Made by a program: the position numbers and the translations under genes
In this document: positions 53,191 to 61,145 of the stretch, in pieces
Layout of the letters: each line of letters opens with the position of its first letter
Numbering within the stretch: the stretch's first letter is position 1
Assembly: GCA_013822265.1 (NCBI GenBank)
Contig: PNKD01000008.1
Coordinates: 1 to 64,000 of the forward strand
DNA length: 64,000 bases
Source of the DNA: Leptothrix sp. (in: b-proteobacteria)
GTDB taxonomy: Bacteria; Pseudomonadota; Gammaproteobacteria; Burkholderiales; Burkholderiaceae_C
Direction: 5' to 3'
Notes under the pieces: generated by a model
What the model saw: only the letters and a program-made list of their open reading frames with translations
Databases searched by the model: none
Told to the model about the DNA's origin: nothing

Positions 53191-54021
53191 TCACCGCGTC
53201 ATCCACCGTCGCGCACCGCAGCTCAGTGCATCCACCGCCGCCACCAGCAGCAGCATGGCGCCCAGCACCGTGGCCGTCTTGCCCATGTGGAACAGCCCCA
53301 TGTGGAAGTACAGCAGCTGCCCCAGCCCGCCGGCGCCCACGACGCCCAGCACGGCAGCGGCGCGGATGTTGTTCTCCCAGCGGTAGAGGGTGTAGCTGAG
53401 CAGTTGCGGCAGCACCTGCGGCAACGTGGCGTAGCAGAACACCGGCAGCGTGCCCACGCCCTGCGCGCGCAGCGCCGCCCCGGGGCCGGGCGGGGCATTC
53501 TCCAGCGCCTCGGCGAAGAGCCGGCCAAGCACGCCGGTGGTGTGCACGGCCAGCGCCAGCGTGCCGGCAAAGGGCCCCAGGCCGGCGGCGATCAGCAGCA
53601 GCCCGGCCCACACCAGCTCGGGCACGGCGCGCAGCGCGTTGAGCAGCAGCCGCGTCGGCGTGCGCCCGCGCGCGGCGTCGCCCGCGTGCAGCCGGCTGGC
53701 CGGCAGCGCCAGCGCCAGCCCGGCCGCGGCGGCCAGCAGGGTGCCCAGCGCCGACATCGCCAGCGTCTCCCAGGTGGCCAGTGCCACCTTGCGCAGGAAC
53801 TCGGCTGAGGTGTCGGGCGGCACGAACTCGCCGATGAAACGCGCCATGCTGTTCAATGCCGAGAGCGAGAGGAACTGCCCCCACTGCAGGTCCAGTGACC
53901 AGAAACTCGCGACCACCAGCAACACCAGCCCGGCGACGTACCAGCAGGCACGGCAGCGCGCGTCGAACAGCCGCGGCGGCAGCCGGTAGGGCGGGTTGGC
54001 GGCGGGCTGAGGGCGCTGCAT
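53191..54021 (-). CDS. PhnE-like ABC transporter permease (putative selenium oxyanion importer)
   Basis: ALRAVPELVWAGLL, WENNIRAAAVLGVVGAGGLGQLL. Confidence 0.88.
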   Translation of the reverse strand: MQRPQPAANPPYRLPPRLFDARCRACWYVAGLVLLVVASFWSLDLQWGQFLSLSALNSMARFIGEFVPPDTSAEFLRKVALATWETLAMSALGTLLAAAAGLALALPASRLHAGDAARGRTPTRLLLNALRAVPELVWAGLLLIAAGLGPFAGTLALAVHTTGVLGRLFAEALENAPPGPGAALRAQGVGTLPVFCYATLPQVLPQLLSYTLYRWENNIRAAAVLGVVGAGGLGQLLYFHMGLFHMGKTATVLGAMLLLVAAVDALSCGARRWMTR

Positions 54022-54027
54022 CGAGGA

Positions 54028-54876
54028 TCATCCCAGGGCGCGGCGCAGGCCGGCACTGACCCGGTCGGCCAATGCCACCAGCGCCATGAACACCAGCAGC
54101 ATGGTCAGCACCTCGCCGCCGTTGAACATCTTCATCGAGCCGTCCAGCTCCTGCCCCAGGCCACCGGCGCCGATGAAGCCGAGCACGACGCTGCTGCGGA
54201 TGGCGCATTCCCAGCGATACACGGTGTAGCTCGTCAGCTCGGCCGCGTTCTGCGGCAGCAGGCCGTAGCAGAAGGCCTGCAGGCGCGAGCTGCCGTTGCG
54301 CAGCAGTGTCTGCGCGGCGTGGGTCTCGCCGCTTTCGAGAATTTCGCCGTAGACCTTGCCCAGCATGCCGCCGTAGGTCAGTGCGATGGCCAGCACGCCG
54401 GCCGTCGGGCCCAGGCCGACGACACGCACGAAGACCAGCGCCCACACCAGCTCGGGCACGCTGCGCAGCATGATGAGCGCCCAGCGCACGCCCTGGCGCA
54501 GCACGAAGGGGCCGCGCGCCATCGGCCCGGCCAGCGCCGAGATCGAGAGCACGCGCGTCGACAGCAGGCTCATGGGCACGGCCAGCAGCAGCGCCAGCGT
54601 GAGCCCGGCGGTGGCCATGGCCACGGTGCGCCACGATTCGCGCGCCACCATGGCCAGGAACTCGGCGCCATGGGCCGGCGGCAGGAAGCCGGCCAGGAAG
54701 CGGCCCGTGACCTCCAGGCTGCGCGGCTCGAAGATCAGCCAGGGCCTGAACTCGGTGGCCACCAGCAGCGGCCACAGCAGCACGGCCGCCGCGCCCGCCC
54801 AGAACAAGCGGCCCAGCCAGGCCGGGTCGCGTGTGGGCGCGGCGGCCTGGGGCCGGTTTGCAGCGGCAGCCGTCAT
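54028..54876 (-). CDS. PhnE-like ABC transporter permease (second)
   Basis: LRSVPELVWALVFV, WECAIRSSVVLGFIGAGGLGQEL. Confidence 0.88.
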   Translation of the reverse strand: MTAAAANRPQAAAPTRDPAWLGRLFWAGAAAVLLWPLLVATEFRPWLIFEPRSLEVTGRFLAGFLPPAHGAEFLAMVARESWRTVAMATAGLTLALLLAVPMSLLSTRVLSISALAGPMARGPFVLRQGVRWALIMLRSVPELVWALVFVRVVGLGPTAGVLAIALTYGGMLGKVYGEILESGETHAAQTLLRNGSSRLQAFCYGLLPQNAAELTSYTVYRWECAIRSSVVLGFIGAGGLGQELDGSMKMFNGGEVLTMLLVFMALVALADRVSAGLRRALG

Positions 54877-54889
54877 GGCCGGTGGCGCC

Positions 54890-55720
54890 TCAGCGGCAAT
54901 GCATCACCACCGGTGCGGGCGCGGCAGGCGGTGCGGCCGCATCGGGTGCGGGGCCGTCGAGCTCGTCCTCGTGCTGCGCATACAGGCGCTCGAGCAGCGC
55001 ACGGTCGACACGCGCCGCCGGCAGGTCGAACATCAGCCGGCCCTCGCGCAGGCCGACGACACGCGGAAAGTGCGCCAGCGCCATGTCCACCTGGTGCAGC
55101 GTGGCCACCAGCGTGACGCCGAGCTCACGCGCCGCATCGACCAGCGTGTGCATGGCCTGCCGCGATCGGGTCGGGTCCAGTGCCGAGAGCGGTTCGTCGA
55201 CCAGCCACAGCGAGGCCGGCGCCAGCAGCGCGCGCGCCAGCCCGACACGCTGGCGTTCGCCGCCGGAGAGGCGGTCGACCCGCTCGAAGAGCTTGTCGGC
55301 GAGGTCGAAGCGGTCGAGCGCGGCGTGCGCGGCCGCAATGTCGTCGGGGTGGAACAGCGAACGCAGGCTGGCCCACAGCCCCATCGCGGGCAGCCGGCCG
55401 GCCAGCACCGAGGTCACGACACGCTGGCGCGGCGGCAGCGGCGGCACCTGCGGCGCCAGGAAGAGGCGGCCGCGCTGGCGCTGCAGCGCGCGCCGCGGCA
55501 GGGCCCAGGGGTCCAGCCCGTCCATGCGCAGACTGCCGGCGTGTGGCGGCAGGGCCAGCGCCAGCGCCTGCAGCAGCGTCGTCTTGCCCGCGCCCGAGGC
55601 GCCGATGACGGCCACCTGCTCGCCGTGCGCGATGCGCAGCTCCAGTGCCATCAGGGCCGCCGGCGCACCGGGCCGCGCCGCCGGGTGGCGGGCGACGAGG
55701 CCGCGCAGTTCGAGCTCCAC
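54890..55720 (-). CDS. PhnC-like ABC transporter ATP-binding protein
   Basis: Walker A GASGAGKTTLL, LSGGERQRVGLARAL, LVDEPLSALD. Confidence 0.92.
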   Translation of the reverse strand: MELELRGLVARHPAARPGAPAALMALELRIAHGEQVAVIGASGAGKTTLLQALALALPPHAGSLRMDGLDPWALPRRALQRQRGRLFLAPQVPPLPPRQRVVTSVLAGRLPAMGLWASLRSLFHPDDIAAAHAALDRFDLADKLFERVDRLSGGERQRVGLARALLAPASLWLVDEPLSALDPTRSRQAMHTLVDAARELGVTLVATLHQVDMALAHFPRVVGLREGRLMFDLPAARVDRALLERLYAQHEDELDGPAPDAAAPPAAPAPVVMHCR

Positions 55721-55732
55721 GCCGCCTCGGGC

Positions 55733-56611
55733 CTACAGCAGGCCGGCGCTGCGCGCGGCGGCCTCTATGCCCTTGTAGTTGTCGGCCTGGGTCGGCACGA
55801 AACGCGTGGCGCGCTGCAGCTCGAGGATCTGCCTGCCTTCGGCGCTGTCCTTGCTCAACGCCAGCAGCGCCTGCTTGAGCTTTTCGCGCAGCGCGGCGGG
55901 CATGTCGGCGTGCACCGTCCAGTTGTAGTCGTAGTAGGGCGGCGTGGTGTAGAAGGCGCGCACCTTTGCCGTGTCGACCTTCTTGTCGGCGATGAACTTG
56001 TCCCACACCGAGATGTTCAGCGCGCCGGCCTGCACCTTGCCCGAGGCCACGGCGGCGATGGTCGCGTCGTGCGCGCCGCTGAAGGCGACACGGCGCAAGT
56101 CCTTGTCGGGGTTGAGCCCGGCCTGCATCAGGAAGCTGCGCGGCATCAGGTGGCCCGAGGTGCTGCTCTGCGAGCCGAAGCTCAGGTCCTTGCCCTTCAG
56201 GTCGGCCAGCGTCTTGATGGCGGCGTCGCCCGTGATGAACACCGAGCGGAACTGCTCGTCCTCGAGCCGCTGCACCAGCGGGATGACCTTGCCGCCCGAT
56301 CGCACGTTCGCCTGCACGAAGGTGAAGCCACCGAACCACGCGAGGTCGGTCTTCCTGTTCACCAGCGTCTCGACGGCCGCGGCGTAGTCGGTGACGGGCG
56401 TGAACTCGACCTTCATCGAGAGCTTGGCCTCGAGGTACTTCACCAGCGGCGCGGCCTTGCGTGCCAGTTCGGTGGGCGACTCGTCGGGGATGGCGGTGAC
56501 GCGCAGCACCTGCTGCGCCTGCGCCTGCGTGCCCAGCGTGCCCAGCGCAAGCAGGGCGGCGCCCAGCCCGGTGCGAAGTGCACGCGAGAGATCGAGTTTC
56601 ATTCGGTACAT
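55733..56611 (-). CDS. PhnD-family substrate-binding protein, putative selenate/selenite-binding branch
   Basis: Signal peptide then VLRVTAIPDESPTELARKAAPLVKYLEAKL...KTDLAWFGGFTFVQA; next to selenium metabolism genes. Confidence 0.82.
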   Translation of the reverse strand: MYRMKLDLSRALRTGLGAALLALGTLGTQAQAQQVLRVTAIPDESPTELARKAAPLVKYLEAKLSMKVEFTPVTDYAAAVETLVNRKTDLAWFGGFTFVQANVRSGGKVIPLVQRLEDEQFRSVFITGDAAIKTLADLKGKDLSFGSQSSTSGHLMPRSFLMQAGLNPDKDLRRVAFSGAHDATIAAVASGKVQAGALNISVWDKFIADKKVDTAKVRAFYTTPPYYDYNWTVHADMPAALREKLKQALLALSKDSAEGRQILELQRATRFVPTQADNYKGIEAAARSAGLL

Positions 56612-56663
56612 CCTGAGTGAAATCGGGGGTCGATCGGAGCGCGGCAGCGGCACGCGGGCCCCG

Positions 56664-56690
56664 ACTCTAGCCGCGCCGCGCTGCTAGAGT
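56664..56690. promoter_or_regulatory. inverted repeat in divergent binding-protein/egtD promoter region
   Basis: ACTCTAGC-N11-GCTAGAGT; each arm contains a -10-like TAGAGT pointing outward. Confidence 0.6.
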
Positions 56691-56737
56691 GCGCCGCGAG
56701 GACATCCCGGCAGCGCGCGCTGCCGCAGCGACCACCG

Positions 56738-57700
56738 ATGAAGACACCCGAGTTCCTGCAGTTGCACCAGATCGACGATGCCCTGCTGGCCCGCGAGGCC
56801 GCCCAGGGCCTGAAGGCCGCCCGGGCGCGTGTCGCGCCCAAGTTCTTCTACGACGCGCTGGGCTCGCGCCTGTTCGACGCCATCACCGAGCTGCCCGAGT
56901 ACTACCCGACACGCACCGAGGCCGCCATCTTCACGGCCCACGGCGCGGCCATCGCCGACGCGGCGCTCGCCGCCACCGGCCCCGCGCCGACGCTGGTGGA
57001 CCTGGGCGCGGGCAACTGCGCCAAGGCCGCGCGCCTGTTTCCGCTGCTGGCGCCGCGGCGCTACGTGGCGGTCGACATCTCGATCGACTACCTGCGCCAG
57101 GCGCTGGCCGCGCTGCAGCGCGAGCATCCGGCCACCAGCCTGGTCGGCGTCGGGCTGGACTTCTCTTCGCGTCTCGAGTTGCCGGCCGCGTTGGCCGACG
57201 GCCCCGCGCTGCTGTTCTATCCCGGCTCGTCGATAGGCAACTTCGCGCCCGACGAGGCGCTGCGCCTGCTGCGGCAAGCGCGTGCCGCGGCGGCCGGCGG
57301 GGCGCTGCTGATTGGCGTCGACCTCGTCAAACCGGCCAGCGTGCTGGAGCCGGCCTACGACGACGCGCTCGGCGTCACCGCGGCCTTCAACCTCAACCTG
57401 CTGCGCCACCTGAACCGCCTGCTGCAGGCCGATTTCGTGCTGCGCGACTGGCGCCACGTGGCCTTCTTCGACGCGGCCGAGTCGCGCATCGAGATGCACC
57501 TGGAGGCGCGCCGCACGCTCACCGTCACTTGGCCCGACAGCGAGCGTGTGTTCGCCGCCGGCGAGCGCATCCACACCGAGAACTCGGCCAAGTGGCGGCC
57601 CGAGGCCTTCGACGCGCTGCTGCGCACCGCCGGCTTCACCAGCGTGCGCCGCTGGACCGACGCGCAGGGCTGGTTCGCGGTCTGCCTGGCGGCCGGCTGA
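56738..57700 (+). CDS. egtD: L-histidine N-alpha-methyltransferase
   Basis: PKFFYDALGSRLFDAITELPEYYPTRTEAAIF, LVDLGAGNCAKA, FYPGSSIGNF. Confidence 0.93.
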   Translation: MKTPEFLQLHQIDDALLAREAAQGLKAARARVAPKFFYDALGSRLFDAITELPEYYPTRTEAAIFTAHGAAIADAALAATGPAPTLVDLGAGNCAKAARLFPLLAPRRYVAVDISIDYLRQALAALQREHPATSLVGVGLDFSSRLELPAALADGPALLFYPGSSIGNFAPDEALRLLRQARAAAAGGALLIGVDLVKPASVLEPAYDDALGVTAAFNLNLLRHLNRLLQADFVLRDWRHVAFFDAAESRIEMHLEARRTLTVTWPDSERVFAAGERIHTENSAKWRPEAFDALLRTAGFTSVRRWTDAQGWFAVCLAAG

Positions 57701-57721
57701 CGATCTGCAAGCGAGCGCGAT

Positions 57722-59038
57722 CTACAAGGCGCAGCTGCGAAAGCCTGCCGGCACGTCGTTGCGCCCGGGCAGGAAGTAGTTGCGGTAGCGTGGGTGGCAC
57801 AGGCGCGGCTGCGTCATGAACGACGCGCCGCGCAGCACCGGCCGGCCATCGAACCACGGCGCCGAGTAGTCGCGGTAGGGATGGGCGCTGAAGCCGGGGT
57901 AGGGCGCGAAGGCGCTGGCCGTCCACTCCCACACGTCGCCCCAGCGGAACGCCGCGCCGACGCTCATCGCCGCACGCTCCCACTCGGCTTCGGCGGGCAG
58001 GCGGCGGCCGGCCCAGCGGCACCAGGCCAGCGCTTCGTGCTGCGTCAGGTGGCAGGCAGCGTGACCCTTGTGCAAGGGCTGCCAGCGGCCGTGGCGCCAT
58101 TGCTGCCAATGGCCGCGCCCTCCACTCTGGCGCCGCAGATAGCGTGGCGCGCGCGCGCCGGCGGCGGCCAGCCACCGCTGCCCGGCCGGCGTCCAGAAGC
58201 GGCTGTCGGCGTAGCCGCCGGCATCGACGAAGGGCAAGAACTCGGCCCAGCGCACGACTTGCGCGTCGATGGTCGCGGCCGGTACCTGCACGACGCAGGC
58301 ACCCAGCTGGTTGTCGAAGGCGAACCCCTCGCCGGCCGTGCTGCCCAGCCGCCACGGGCCGGCCTGCAGCGGCAGCGGCGCCGGCGGGTCGGGCAGCGCC
58401 CGCGGCTGCCAGCGGGTGTCGGCAATGGCCACGCCCAGGGCCTGCGCCATGTAGAGCGCGGCTTCGTGGTGCATGTCCTCGTGCAGCAGGGCCAGGCGGA
58501 AGAAGTAGAGCGCGTCGTCGCTGGCGCCTGCACCTTGGGCGTCGTTCAGGTCGCGCAGTTCGTGCAGGGTGCGGTCGAACTGCGCCTGCAGGTCGCCGCG
58601 CGTGGCGGCTGCGTCGGGCAGCGGCAGCGCCCAGCGCGTGTGATGCGGCACGCGGCTGGAGTTGTAGAGCGTGTCGGCGCCGTCCCTTGCGGGGGCGCGG
58701 CGCGGCGCGTCGGGGTCAGCGGCAGCGCCTGCGGCACGCGCGGTGTTGCGGCCTATCCACCAGTCCTGGAACCAGCCCACATGGCCCAGTTCCCAAAGCG
58801 GCGGGTTGAGCTCGTCGCGCTGCGGCACCTGCAGCCCGGGCAGCGCGAGCTCATAGGCCTCGAAGGTGGCCAGCGTGTCGCGGCGGCTGTCCAGCAGGGC
58901 GCGCGCCAGGGCCGCGGCATCACCCTGGCGTGCGATGCGGGCGGCCTCGCCGGTCGCCTGTGTTTCATCGGCTGCGCCGGGGCCATCGCGCGCAGCGCGG
59001 CGGCCGGGCGCGGCAGGCGCTAGGCTTGCGTCATGCAT
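57722..59038 (-). CDS. senA: EgtB-family nonheme iron enzyme, probable selenoneine synthase
   Basis: NPPLWELGHVGWFQDWWIGRN, LLHEDMHHEAALYM, FGE-sulfatase-type C-terminus (WGDVWEWTASAF...RGASF); neighbours are SenB- and SelD-like. Confidence 0.82.
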   Translation of the reverse strand: MHDASLAPAAPGRRAARDGPGAADETQATGEAARIARQGDAAALARALLDSRRDTLATFEAYELALPGLQVPQRDELNPPLWELGHVGWFQDWWIGRNTARAAGAAADPDAPRRAPARDGADTLYNSSRVPHHTRWALPLPDAAATRGDLQAQFDRTLHELRDLNDAQGAGASDDALYFFRLALLHEDMHHEAALYMAQALGVAIADTRWQPRALPDPPAPLPLQAGPWRLGSTAGEGFAFDNQLGACVVQVPAATIDAQVVRWAEFLPFVDAGGYADSRFWTPAGQRWLAAAGARAPRYLRRQSGGRGHWQQWRHGRWQPLHKGHAACHLTQHEALAWCRWAGRRLPAEAEWERAAMSVGAAFRWGDVWEWTASAFAPYPGFSAHPYRDYSAPWFDGRPVLRGASFMTQPRLCHPRYRNYFLPGRNDVPAGFRSCAL

Positions 59039-60016
59039 CGTGAGTCCATCGTCATCGTCACCCCCGCGTTCGCGGACGCGAACAACGGCAACTGGCAGAC
59101 GGCGCGCCGCTGGGCACGCCTGCTGGGCTCAGCTTACCGTGTCCGCCTCGCGGGCGGCTGGCCGCCGGCCGATGGCGGCGGCGACGAGGGCTTGATGATC
59201 GCGCTGCACGCCCGCCGCTCGGCCGCCGCGGCGGCCGCGTGGCGGGCGGCCTGCCCGCAGCGCCCGCTGCTGCTGGCGCTGACCGGCACCGACCTCTACC
59301 GCGACATCCACGATGACGCCGGCGCGCAGCGCTCGCTCGCGCTGGCCGACCGGCTGGTGGTGCTCAACGAACTCGGCGCCCGGCAATTGCCGCCCGCCTT
59401 GCGCGACAAGTGCGACGTCGTGCTGCAGTCGTGCAGCGCCCGCCGCACGCTGCCGCGAACCAAGCGCCACCTGCGCGCGCTGATGGTGGGCCACCTGCGC
59501 GACGAGAAGGACCCGCAGACCTACTTCGCCGCCGCGCGGCTGCTGGCCGGGCGCCGCGACATCCTGCTCGACCATGTCGGCAGCGCCCTCGACCCCGCGC
59601 TGGGTGCGCAGGCCCAGGCGCTGGCCGCGGAACTGCCCACCTACCGCTGGCTCGGCGGCCTGCCGCATGCCGCGGCGCGCGCGCGCATCCAGCGCGCCCA
59701 TGTGCTGGTGCACCCCAGCCGCATGGAGGGCGGCGCGCACGTCGTCACCGAGTCCATGCGCAGCGGCACGCCGGTGCTGGCGTCACGCATCGACGGCAAC
59801 CTCGGCCTGCTGGGCGCCGACTACCCGGGGCTGTTCGAGCCCGGCGATGCGGCCGGGCTGGCAGCCCTGCTGGAGCGCGCCCGCGACGATGCCGCTATGC
59901 TGCCAGCCCTGCAGGCGAGGCTGGCCTTGCGCGCGCCGCTGGCGTCGCCGCAGGCCGAGGCCGCGAAGCTGCAGGGCATCGTCGCTCGCCTGCTCGGTGG
60001 TGGCCGCGGCACCTGA
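59033..60016 (+). CDS. senB: glycosyltransferase, probable selenosugar synthase
   Basis: VIVTPAFADANNGNWQTARRWARLL, ALTGTDLYRDI, VHPSRMEGGAHVVTESMRSGTPVLAS; between senA and selD. Confidence 0.82.
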   Translation: MHRESIVIVTPAFADANNGNWQTARRWARLLGSAYRVRLAGGWPPADGGGDEGLMIALHARRSAAAAAAWRAACPQRPLLLALTGTDLYRDIHDDAGAQRSLALADRLVVLNELGARQLPPALRDKCDVVLQSCSARRTLPRTKRHLRALMVGHLRDEKDPQTYFAAARLLAGRRDILLDHVGSALDPALGAQAQALAAELPTYRWLGGLPHAAARARIQRAHVLVHPSRMEGGAHVVTESMRSGTPVLASRIDGNLGLLGADYPGLFEPGDAAGLAALLERARDDAAMLPALQARLALRAPLASPQAEAAKLQGIVARLLGGGRGT

Positions 60017-60080
60017 GCCGCGCGGCCAACCCGGCCGCTGCGATGCGTTCCCACCGATCCCGTCATCCAGGAGCCCACCG

Positions 60081-61145
60081 ATGAACGCCCCCGAAAGACC
60101 TGCCGAACCTCGGCTGACGTCGCTGTCGCACGGCGGCGGCTGCGGCTGCAAGATTGCTCCCGGTGTGTTGAGCGAAATCTTGAAGGGCACCGCCGCGATG
60201 CCCATCCCCAAGGAACTGCTGGTCGGCATCGAGACGGCCGACGACGCCGCCGTCTACCGGCTCAACGACGAGCAGGCGCTGATCGCCACCACCGACTTCT
60301 TCATGCCCATCGTCGACGACCCGCTCGACTTCGGGCGCATCGCCGCCACCAATGCCATCAGCGACGTCTACGCGATGGGCGGGCGGCCGATCATGGCGCT
60401 GGCGCTGGTGGGCATGCCGATCAACGTGCTGTCGACGCAGACCATAGGCCGCATCCTGGAAGGCGGCGCCTCGGTCTGCCGCACGGCCGGCATCCCCATC
60501 GCCGGCGGCCACACCATCGACAGCGTCGAGGCCATCTATGGCCTGGTGGCGCTCGGCCTGGTGCACCCCAAACACGTCAAGCGCAACGCCGACGCGCGCG
60601 CCGGCGACGTGCTGGTGCTGGGCAAGCCGCTGGGCGTGGGCGTGATGAGCGCGGCGCTGAAGAAGGGCGAACTGGGCGACGCCGGCTACGCGCAGATGAT
60701 CGCCAGCACGACCCAGCTCAACACCCCCGGCCCCGACCTGGCCGCGCTGCCGGGCGTGCACGCGCTGACCGACGTCACCGGTTTCGGCCTCGCCGGCCAT
60801 GCGCTGGAGATGGCGCGCGGCGCGCGTTGCGAATTGCACCTCGATTGGCAGGCCGTGCCGCTGCTGCCCGGCGTGCATGCGCTGGCGAGCCGGGGGTTCA
60901 TCACCGGCGCGTCCGGCCGCAACTGGGCCGGTTATGGCGCGGGCGTGGTCGTGCCGGGCAACTTCGCCGAGGTCGAGCAGGCACTGCTGACCGACCCGCA
61001 GACCAGCGGCGGCCTGCTCGTGGCCTGCGCGCCGGGCAGCGTCGACGAGGTGATGGCGGTGTTCCGCCGCCATGGCTTCGAGGGCGCGGCCGTCGTCGGG
61101 CAGGTGAGGGCGGCGTCGGGCTCGCCGCGGGTCGTCGTCGCCTGA
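60081..61145 (+). CDS. selD: selenide, water dikinase (SelD/SenC type)
   Basis: LSHGGGCGCKIAPGVL, DDAAVYRLNDEQALIATTDFFMPIVDDP, GGHTID. Confidence 0.93.
   Translation: MNAPERPAEPRLTSLSHGGGCGCKIAPGVLSEILKGTAAMPIPKELLVGIETADDAAVYRLNDEQALIATTDFFMPIVDDPLDFGRIAATNAISDVYAMGGRPIMALALVGMPINVLSTQTIGRILEGGASVCRTAGIPIAGGHTIDSVEAIYGLVALGLVHPKHVKRNADARAGDVLVLGKPLGVGVMSAALKKGELGDAGYAQMIASTTQLNTPGPDLAALPGVHALTDVTGFGLAGHALEMARGARCELHLDWQAVPLLPGVHALASRGFITGASGRNWAGYGAGVVVPGNFAEVEQALLTDPQTSGGLLVACAPGSVDEVMAVFRRHGFEGAAVVGQVRAASGSPRVVVA

Follow-up and report, generated by a model that had tools for sequence, protein, structure and literature searches.

A candidate selenium importer linked to selenoneine biosynthesis genes in Leptothrix sp.

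Eight contiguous genes of Leptothrix sp. quite probably constitute a module that leads from the acquisition of selenium to selenoneine, with an importer and a SelD protein that would also serve the synthesis of selenocysteine and 2-selenouridine. The genes occupy positions 53191 to 61145 of the window, the 64,000-nt stretch of DNA analysed here, where all eight open reading frames described in the initial annotation were confirmed as one contiguous set. This is a real, well-formed selenoneine locus, and its pathway is already known; the enzymes are of the described kind, and the interest lies in the importer, which is nominated by several lines of context.

The transporter genes lie on the minus strand and encode two PhnE-type permeases (53191..54021, 256 bits with TIGR01097, above the cut-off; 54028..54876, 190 bits with the same model, below its cut-off of 216.7), a PhnC-like ATPase (54890..55720, 190 bits with TIGR02315, below the cut-off of 266), and a binding protein, or SBP (55733..56653), that scores 398 bits against a cut-off of 250 with TIGR04553, "putative selenate ABC transporter." We assign the permeases and the ATPase to a putative selenium importer, their linkage to the sen genes being conserved in relatives. 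There follow EgtD, the histidine N-alpha-trimethyltransferase expected to supply hercynine (56738..57700, plus strand; TIGR03438, 362 bits, cut-off 290.9); SenA, a nonhaem iron selenoneine synthase (57722..59038, minus strand; NF041186, 491 bits, cut-off 420); SenB, a selenosugar synthase (59033..60016, plus strand; TIGR04348, 421 bits, cut-off 300); and SelD (SenC), a selenide water dikinase (60075..61145, plus strand; 536 bits, cut-off 299). All four enzymes exceed their cut-offs, and Pfam domain calls are consistent with the NCBIfam assignments. The initial annotation expected a generic annotation to miss the selenium logic; in fact, NCBIfam models unaided name five of the eight genes, each above its curated cut-off, SenA, SenB, and the putative selenate SBP among them, together with EgtD and SelD. 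The most likely start of SelD is 60075. As annotated, senA and senB stand head to head and their starts share 6 bp; since the SenA model match begins only at residue 38, the SenA start may be further in. The flanking genes, a CoA-transferase and a YlqF GTPase, are unrelated to the locus, and no regulatory RNA matched Rfam at the gathering thresholds.

The layout had been described as unusual. It is not: among 80 related SenA loci taken from named genomes, 17 have the identical eight-gene order, and no other arrangement is as frequent in close relatives. In 15 further loci the importer is present and EgtD absent, in eight the ABC genes are kept and both the SBP and EgtD are missing, and in one (L033) the SBP alone is missing; complete importer ABC genes occur in 43 of the 80. 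One genome (G216, locus L137) has the eight genes rearranged, with seven sharing one direction. The sen/importer module is thus conserved and modular. At five loci (L008, L021, L058, L072, L082) SenA stands alone, with SenB more than 10 kb away, elsewhere in the genome; for L079, which comes from a MAG, no SenB over the cut-off was found.

The case for the importer comes from its company. TIGR04553 was surveyed across 299 evenly sampled Pseudomonadota genomes, the window's own included, and 24 carry a protein above the cut-off, with a sharp gap in scores (326 versus 217 bits). SelD is encoded by 22 of these 24 genomes and by 62 of the 275 others (Fisher p=1.4e-11, phylogeny ignored); the two TIGR04553 genomes without SelD are G157 and G277, the latter 78% complete. 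G157 also lacks SelA and SelU. In 9 of 22 genomes no more than 10 kb separates the TIGR04553 SBP from SelD; among the 63 other PhnD-family matches listed for SelD genomes, counted by hand, none is so close (p=1.2e-6). A SenA-model match over the cut-off is found in only five of the 24 genomes, and in the tree three of these sequences fall with OvsA; the transporter is therefore a general associate of selenium rather than a selenoneine specialist. Neither is it obligatory, since several SenA-positive genomes are without TIGR04553. In one genome (G285, L116:9018-11348) a tandem pair of TIGR04553 SBP genes with differing pockets stands beside SelD.

The distribution of the transporter's parts points the same way. 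Eight genomes have sen loci with PhnC and two PhnE genes and no SBP; in all eight, a TIGR04553 SBP is encoded elsewhere, and in five of them (L157-L161; Roseateles-type) it adjoins selB, selA, and formate dehydrogenase genes. At L157, for example, its neighbours are SelB (416 bits), SelA (566), FDH-beta (449), and FDH-alpha (1216). Because the parts of one transporter are split across two different selenium loci, a cargo other than selenium is hard to square with the arrangement. In three more genomes the SBP adjoins SenB and an oxidoreductase-SelD fusion, and their SenA-like protein groups with OvsA, the ovoselenol enzyme; in the genomes of these close relatives of OvsA, then, SenB, the SelD fusion, and the TIGR04553 importer occur together. 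We reject chance adjacency, because relatives conserve the linkage and the SBP has relocated to selAB-fdh. Judged from this comparative genomic context, the PhnD/C/E/E transporter is likely to be a selenium importer, as the initial annotation had proposed; co-occurrence with SelD, adjacency to it, and SBP relocation all favour the proposal.

The binding pocket is less decisive. In the window's SBP it is formed by D57, Y90, T111, S163-S166, H195, N213, D242, and Y243, and all eleven residues are identical in the nearest solved SBP, Synechococcus PhnD1 (7S6G); the picocyanobacterial PhnD1 structures (7S6G, 5LQ5) share the first-shell pocket, and 7S6G itself scores 337 bits on TIGR04553, above the cut-off. 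PhnD1 has measured ligands, namely phosphite, phosphate, and methylphosphonate, and the text of the paper that reports them makes no mention of selenium (PMC10284923). The PhnD1 residues that bind phosphate are D11, Y44, T65, S123-S126, H156, N174, D203, and Y204, and the failure of PhnD1 to bind hypophosphite implies that a ligand must offer three oxygens arranged trigonally (PMC10284923). Prochlorococcus and Synechococcus also carry a SelD-like fusion (PMC1273633). An attempt to call the ligand from the pocket residues failed, the pocket being equal to that of a phosphite/phosphate protein. Given that PhnD1 is over the cut-off, with the same pocket and with phosphite and phosphate as ligands, either TIGR04553 is a mixed family or PhnD1 accepts selenium as well.

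If selenium is the cargo, its form may be narrowed. The window's SBP is a clear member of TIGR04553, which NCBIfam lists as a hypothetical equivalog and for whose accession a literature search found no paper; the family name, itself a hypothesis, speaks for selenate, a reading we consider somewhat unlikely. At neutral pH, selenate has lost all its protons and hydrogen selenite has not; selenite, moreover, is pyramidal, as is phosphite. Because an aspartate hydrogen-bond acceptor in the pocket (D242) favours protonated oxyanions, hydrogen selenite would fit better than selenate. In 18 sen loci (L005, L009, and L140 among them) the SBP shows a correlated set of differences from the window's SBP, D57E/N213D/D242N, in which N213 and D242 are swapped to D and N and an acceptor is therefore retained; the set may mark a ligand or affinity subtype. 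Hydrogen selenite is thus the likelier cargo of the importer, as far as pocket residues can indicate.

A more conventional explanation holds that the importer is an ordinary phosphite, phosphate, or phosphonate transporter that happens to stand beside selenoneine genes. The permeases and the ATPase do belong to the PhnE and PhnC families, and every first-shell phosphate residue of PhnD1, itself over the TIGR04553 cut-off, is conserved; against this stand the strong co-occurrence and adjacency with SelD, the linkage to sen genes in varied orders, and the relocation of the SBP to selB-selA-fdh. SelD adjacency is zero among the other PhnD-family proteins listed, and the window's own genome encodes three other PhnD-like SBPs; the window's SBP scores 153 bits with the PhnD model TIGR03431, below the cut-off of 261. 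We therefore regard a phosphorus transporter as unlikely.

The enzyme assignments of the initial annotation (EgtD, SenA, SenB, and SelD) are borne out by model scores, by structural matches, and by phylogeny. The metal-ligand motifs of SenA, GHVGW and HEDMHHE, are intact, including the HEDMHH noted at the outset, and its best PDB matches are the selenoneine synthases 8ryz/8k5i (E about 1e-122), compared with 2e-43 for the OvsA structure and 1e-31 for the EgtB structure. In a maximum likelihood tree of 50 proteins, the 57722-59038 protein clusters with the characterised SenA of PDB 8RYZ (support 98/92), apart from OvsA and the EgtB-type rows; it does not fall in an EgtB clade, the placement that the initial annotation had named as one that would refute its reading. 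Twelve EgtB-type rows from other Pseudomonadota, typed as such solely by scoring below the SenA cut-off, form a separate long-branch group, and the sole PDB EgtB row is long-branched and placed loosely. The best PDB matches of SenB are the SenB structures 8jjq/8fbx (E about 1e-105), and an alignment places K159 at the position of the catalytic lysine K158, which with the EGGAHV motif, also present, is named among the key residues of SenB (PMC10891094). One EgtD was found in the genome, that of the sen locus, and no EgtB over the cut-off, so hercynine would go to SenA only. That the enzymes make ergothioneine or another thio-histidine instead, as the homology of SenA to EgtB and the standing of EgtD as the ergothioneine methyltransferase might suggest, is very improbable, and we reject it on the model scores (491 bits with the SenA model versus 209 with the EgtB model TIGR03440, cut-off 360), the tree, the absence of EgtB over the cut-off, and the position of SenB head to head with senA and of SelD adjacent. 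We infer from these sequence comparisons that Leptothrix sp. produces selenoneine.

Several relatives of SenA depart from this pattern. The SenA of the locus is the single intact one of the window's own genome, where a second SenA-like protein, on contig C12 (L003:6239-7441; 252 bits), has HEDRLGE instead of the HxxxH metal motif. The tree joins this second protein (100/99) to L168 from genome G260, which has HEDMRCE and yet scores 478 bits, above the SenA cut-off. Together they seem to be a SenA-derived paralogue clade that has lost its iron ligands. Three further proteins (L169-L171, from genomes G188, G084, and G152) exceed the NF041186 cut-off, yet group with OvsA in the tree (100/100); the SenA model thus appears to over-call ovoselenol enzymes.

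The initial reading of a set dedicated to selenoneine does not hold. In the window's genome (97% complete, 251 contigs) one SelD was found, inside the sen locus, and one SelA and one SelU/MnmH, both outside it. We reject a dedicated SenC paralogue, only one SelD having been found in the genome. With no second SelD found and with SelA and SelU present, the SelD and importer of the locus probably also feed selenocysteine and 2-selenouridine. From gene content, the protein is probably the cell's selenium hub and not a dedicated SenC, and SelD would be common to selenocysteine, selenouridine, and selenoneine.

We suggest the following route. The PhnD-like SBP, the PhnC-like ATPase, and the two PhnE-like permeases would bring selenium into the cell as an oxyanion, hydrogen selenite most probably, from which cellular thiols and reductases encoded outside the locus would generate selenide. 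SelD would make selenophosphate, an assignment certain at the level of the family; SenB would form a selenosugar from selenophosphate and a UDP-sugar, as shown for its orthologues; EgtD would convert histidine to hercynine, as shown for its family; and SenA would couple the selenosugar and hercynine to give selenoneine, again as shown for orthologues. The locus had been called complete, a description that does not extend to the second of these steps, as the eight genes include no selenite-to-selenide reductase. At other loci (L028, L030, L034, L016, L019, L020, L050) an FAD-containing oxidoreductase of the PRK06370 type, kin to MerA and glutathione reductase, lies near sen genes. This protein is a candidate for the missing reduction of selenite or selenodiglutathione.

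The senABC genes of Variovorax paradoxus are the described selenoneine biosynthesis cluster (Kayrouz 2022; described in PMC9814287, PMC10891094). The window's locus resembles it in bringing together orthologues of SenA, SenB, and SelD/SenC, with the key SenB residues and SenA motifs kept; it differs in adding EgtD and a four-gene importer, and in its SelD, the only one in a genome where SelA and SelU are encoded as well. The ovoselenol pathway likewise uses a selenium-specific EgtB-like enzyme, OvsA (8UX5), although the window's protein groups with SenA.

According to a 2026 review, a specific, high-affinity transport system for selenium has yet to be identified in prokaryotes (PMC13188914), and in an archaeon five candidate transporters failed deletion tests (PMC11097638). 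We put forward, tentatively and as a possibility we rather doubt, that the TIGR04553 PhnD/C/E/E transporter is the missing dedicated prokaryotic selenite importer for any SelD output, picocyanobacterial PhnD1 included. If true, the outputs served would be selenocysteine, selenouridine, selenoneine, and ovoselenol, and the PhnD1 "phosphite" transporter, whose role has been called paradoxical, would be part of the same selenium system. For Leptothrix sp., the presence of one SelD suggests that selenoneine competes with selenoproteins and tRNA selenation for that single enzyme. With this importer, the uptake of trace selenium by bacteria becomes directly testable, and some genomes have the SBP and permease in two different selenium loci.
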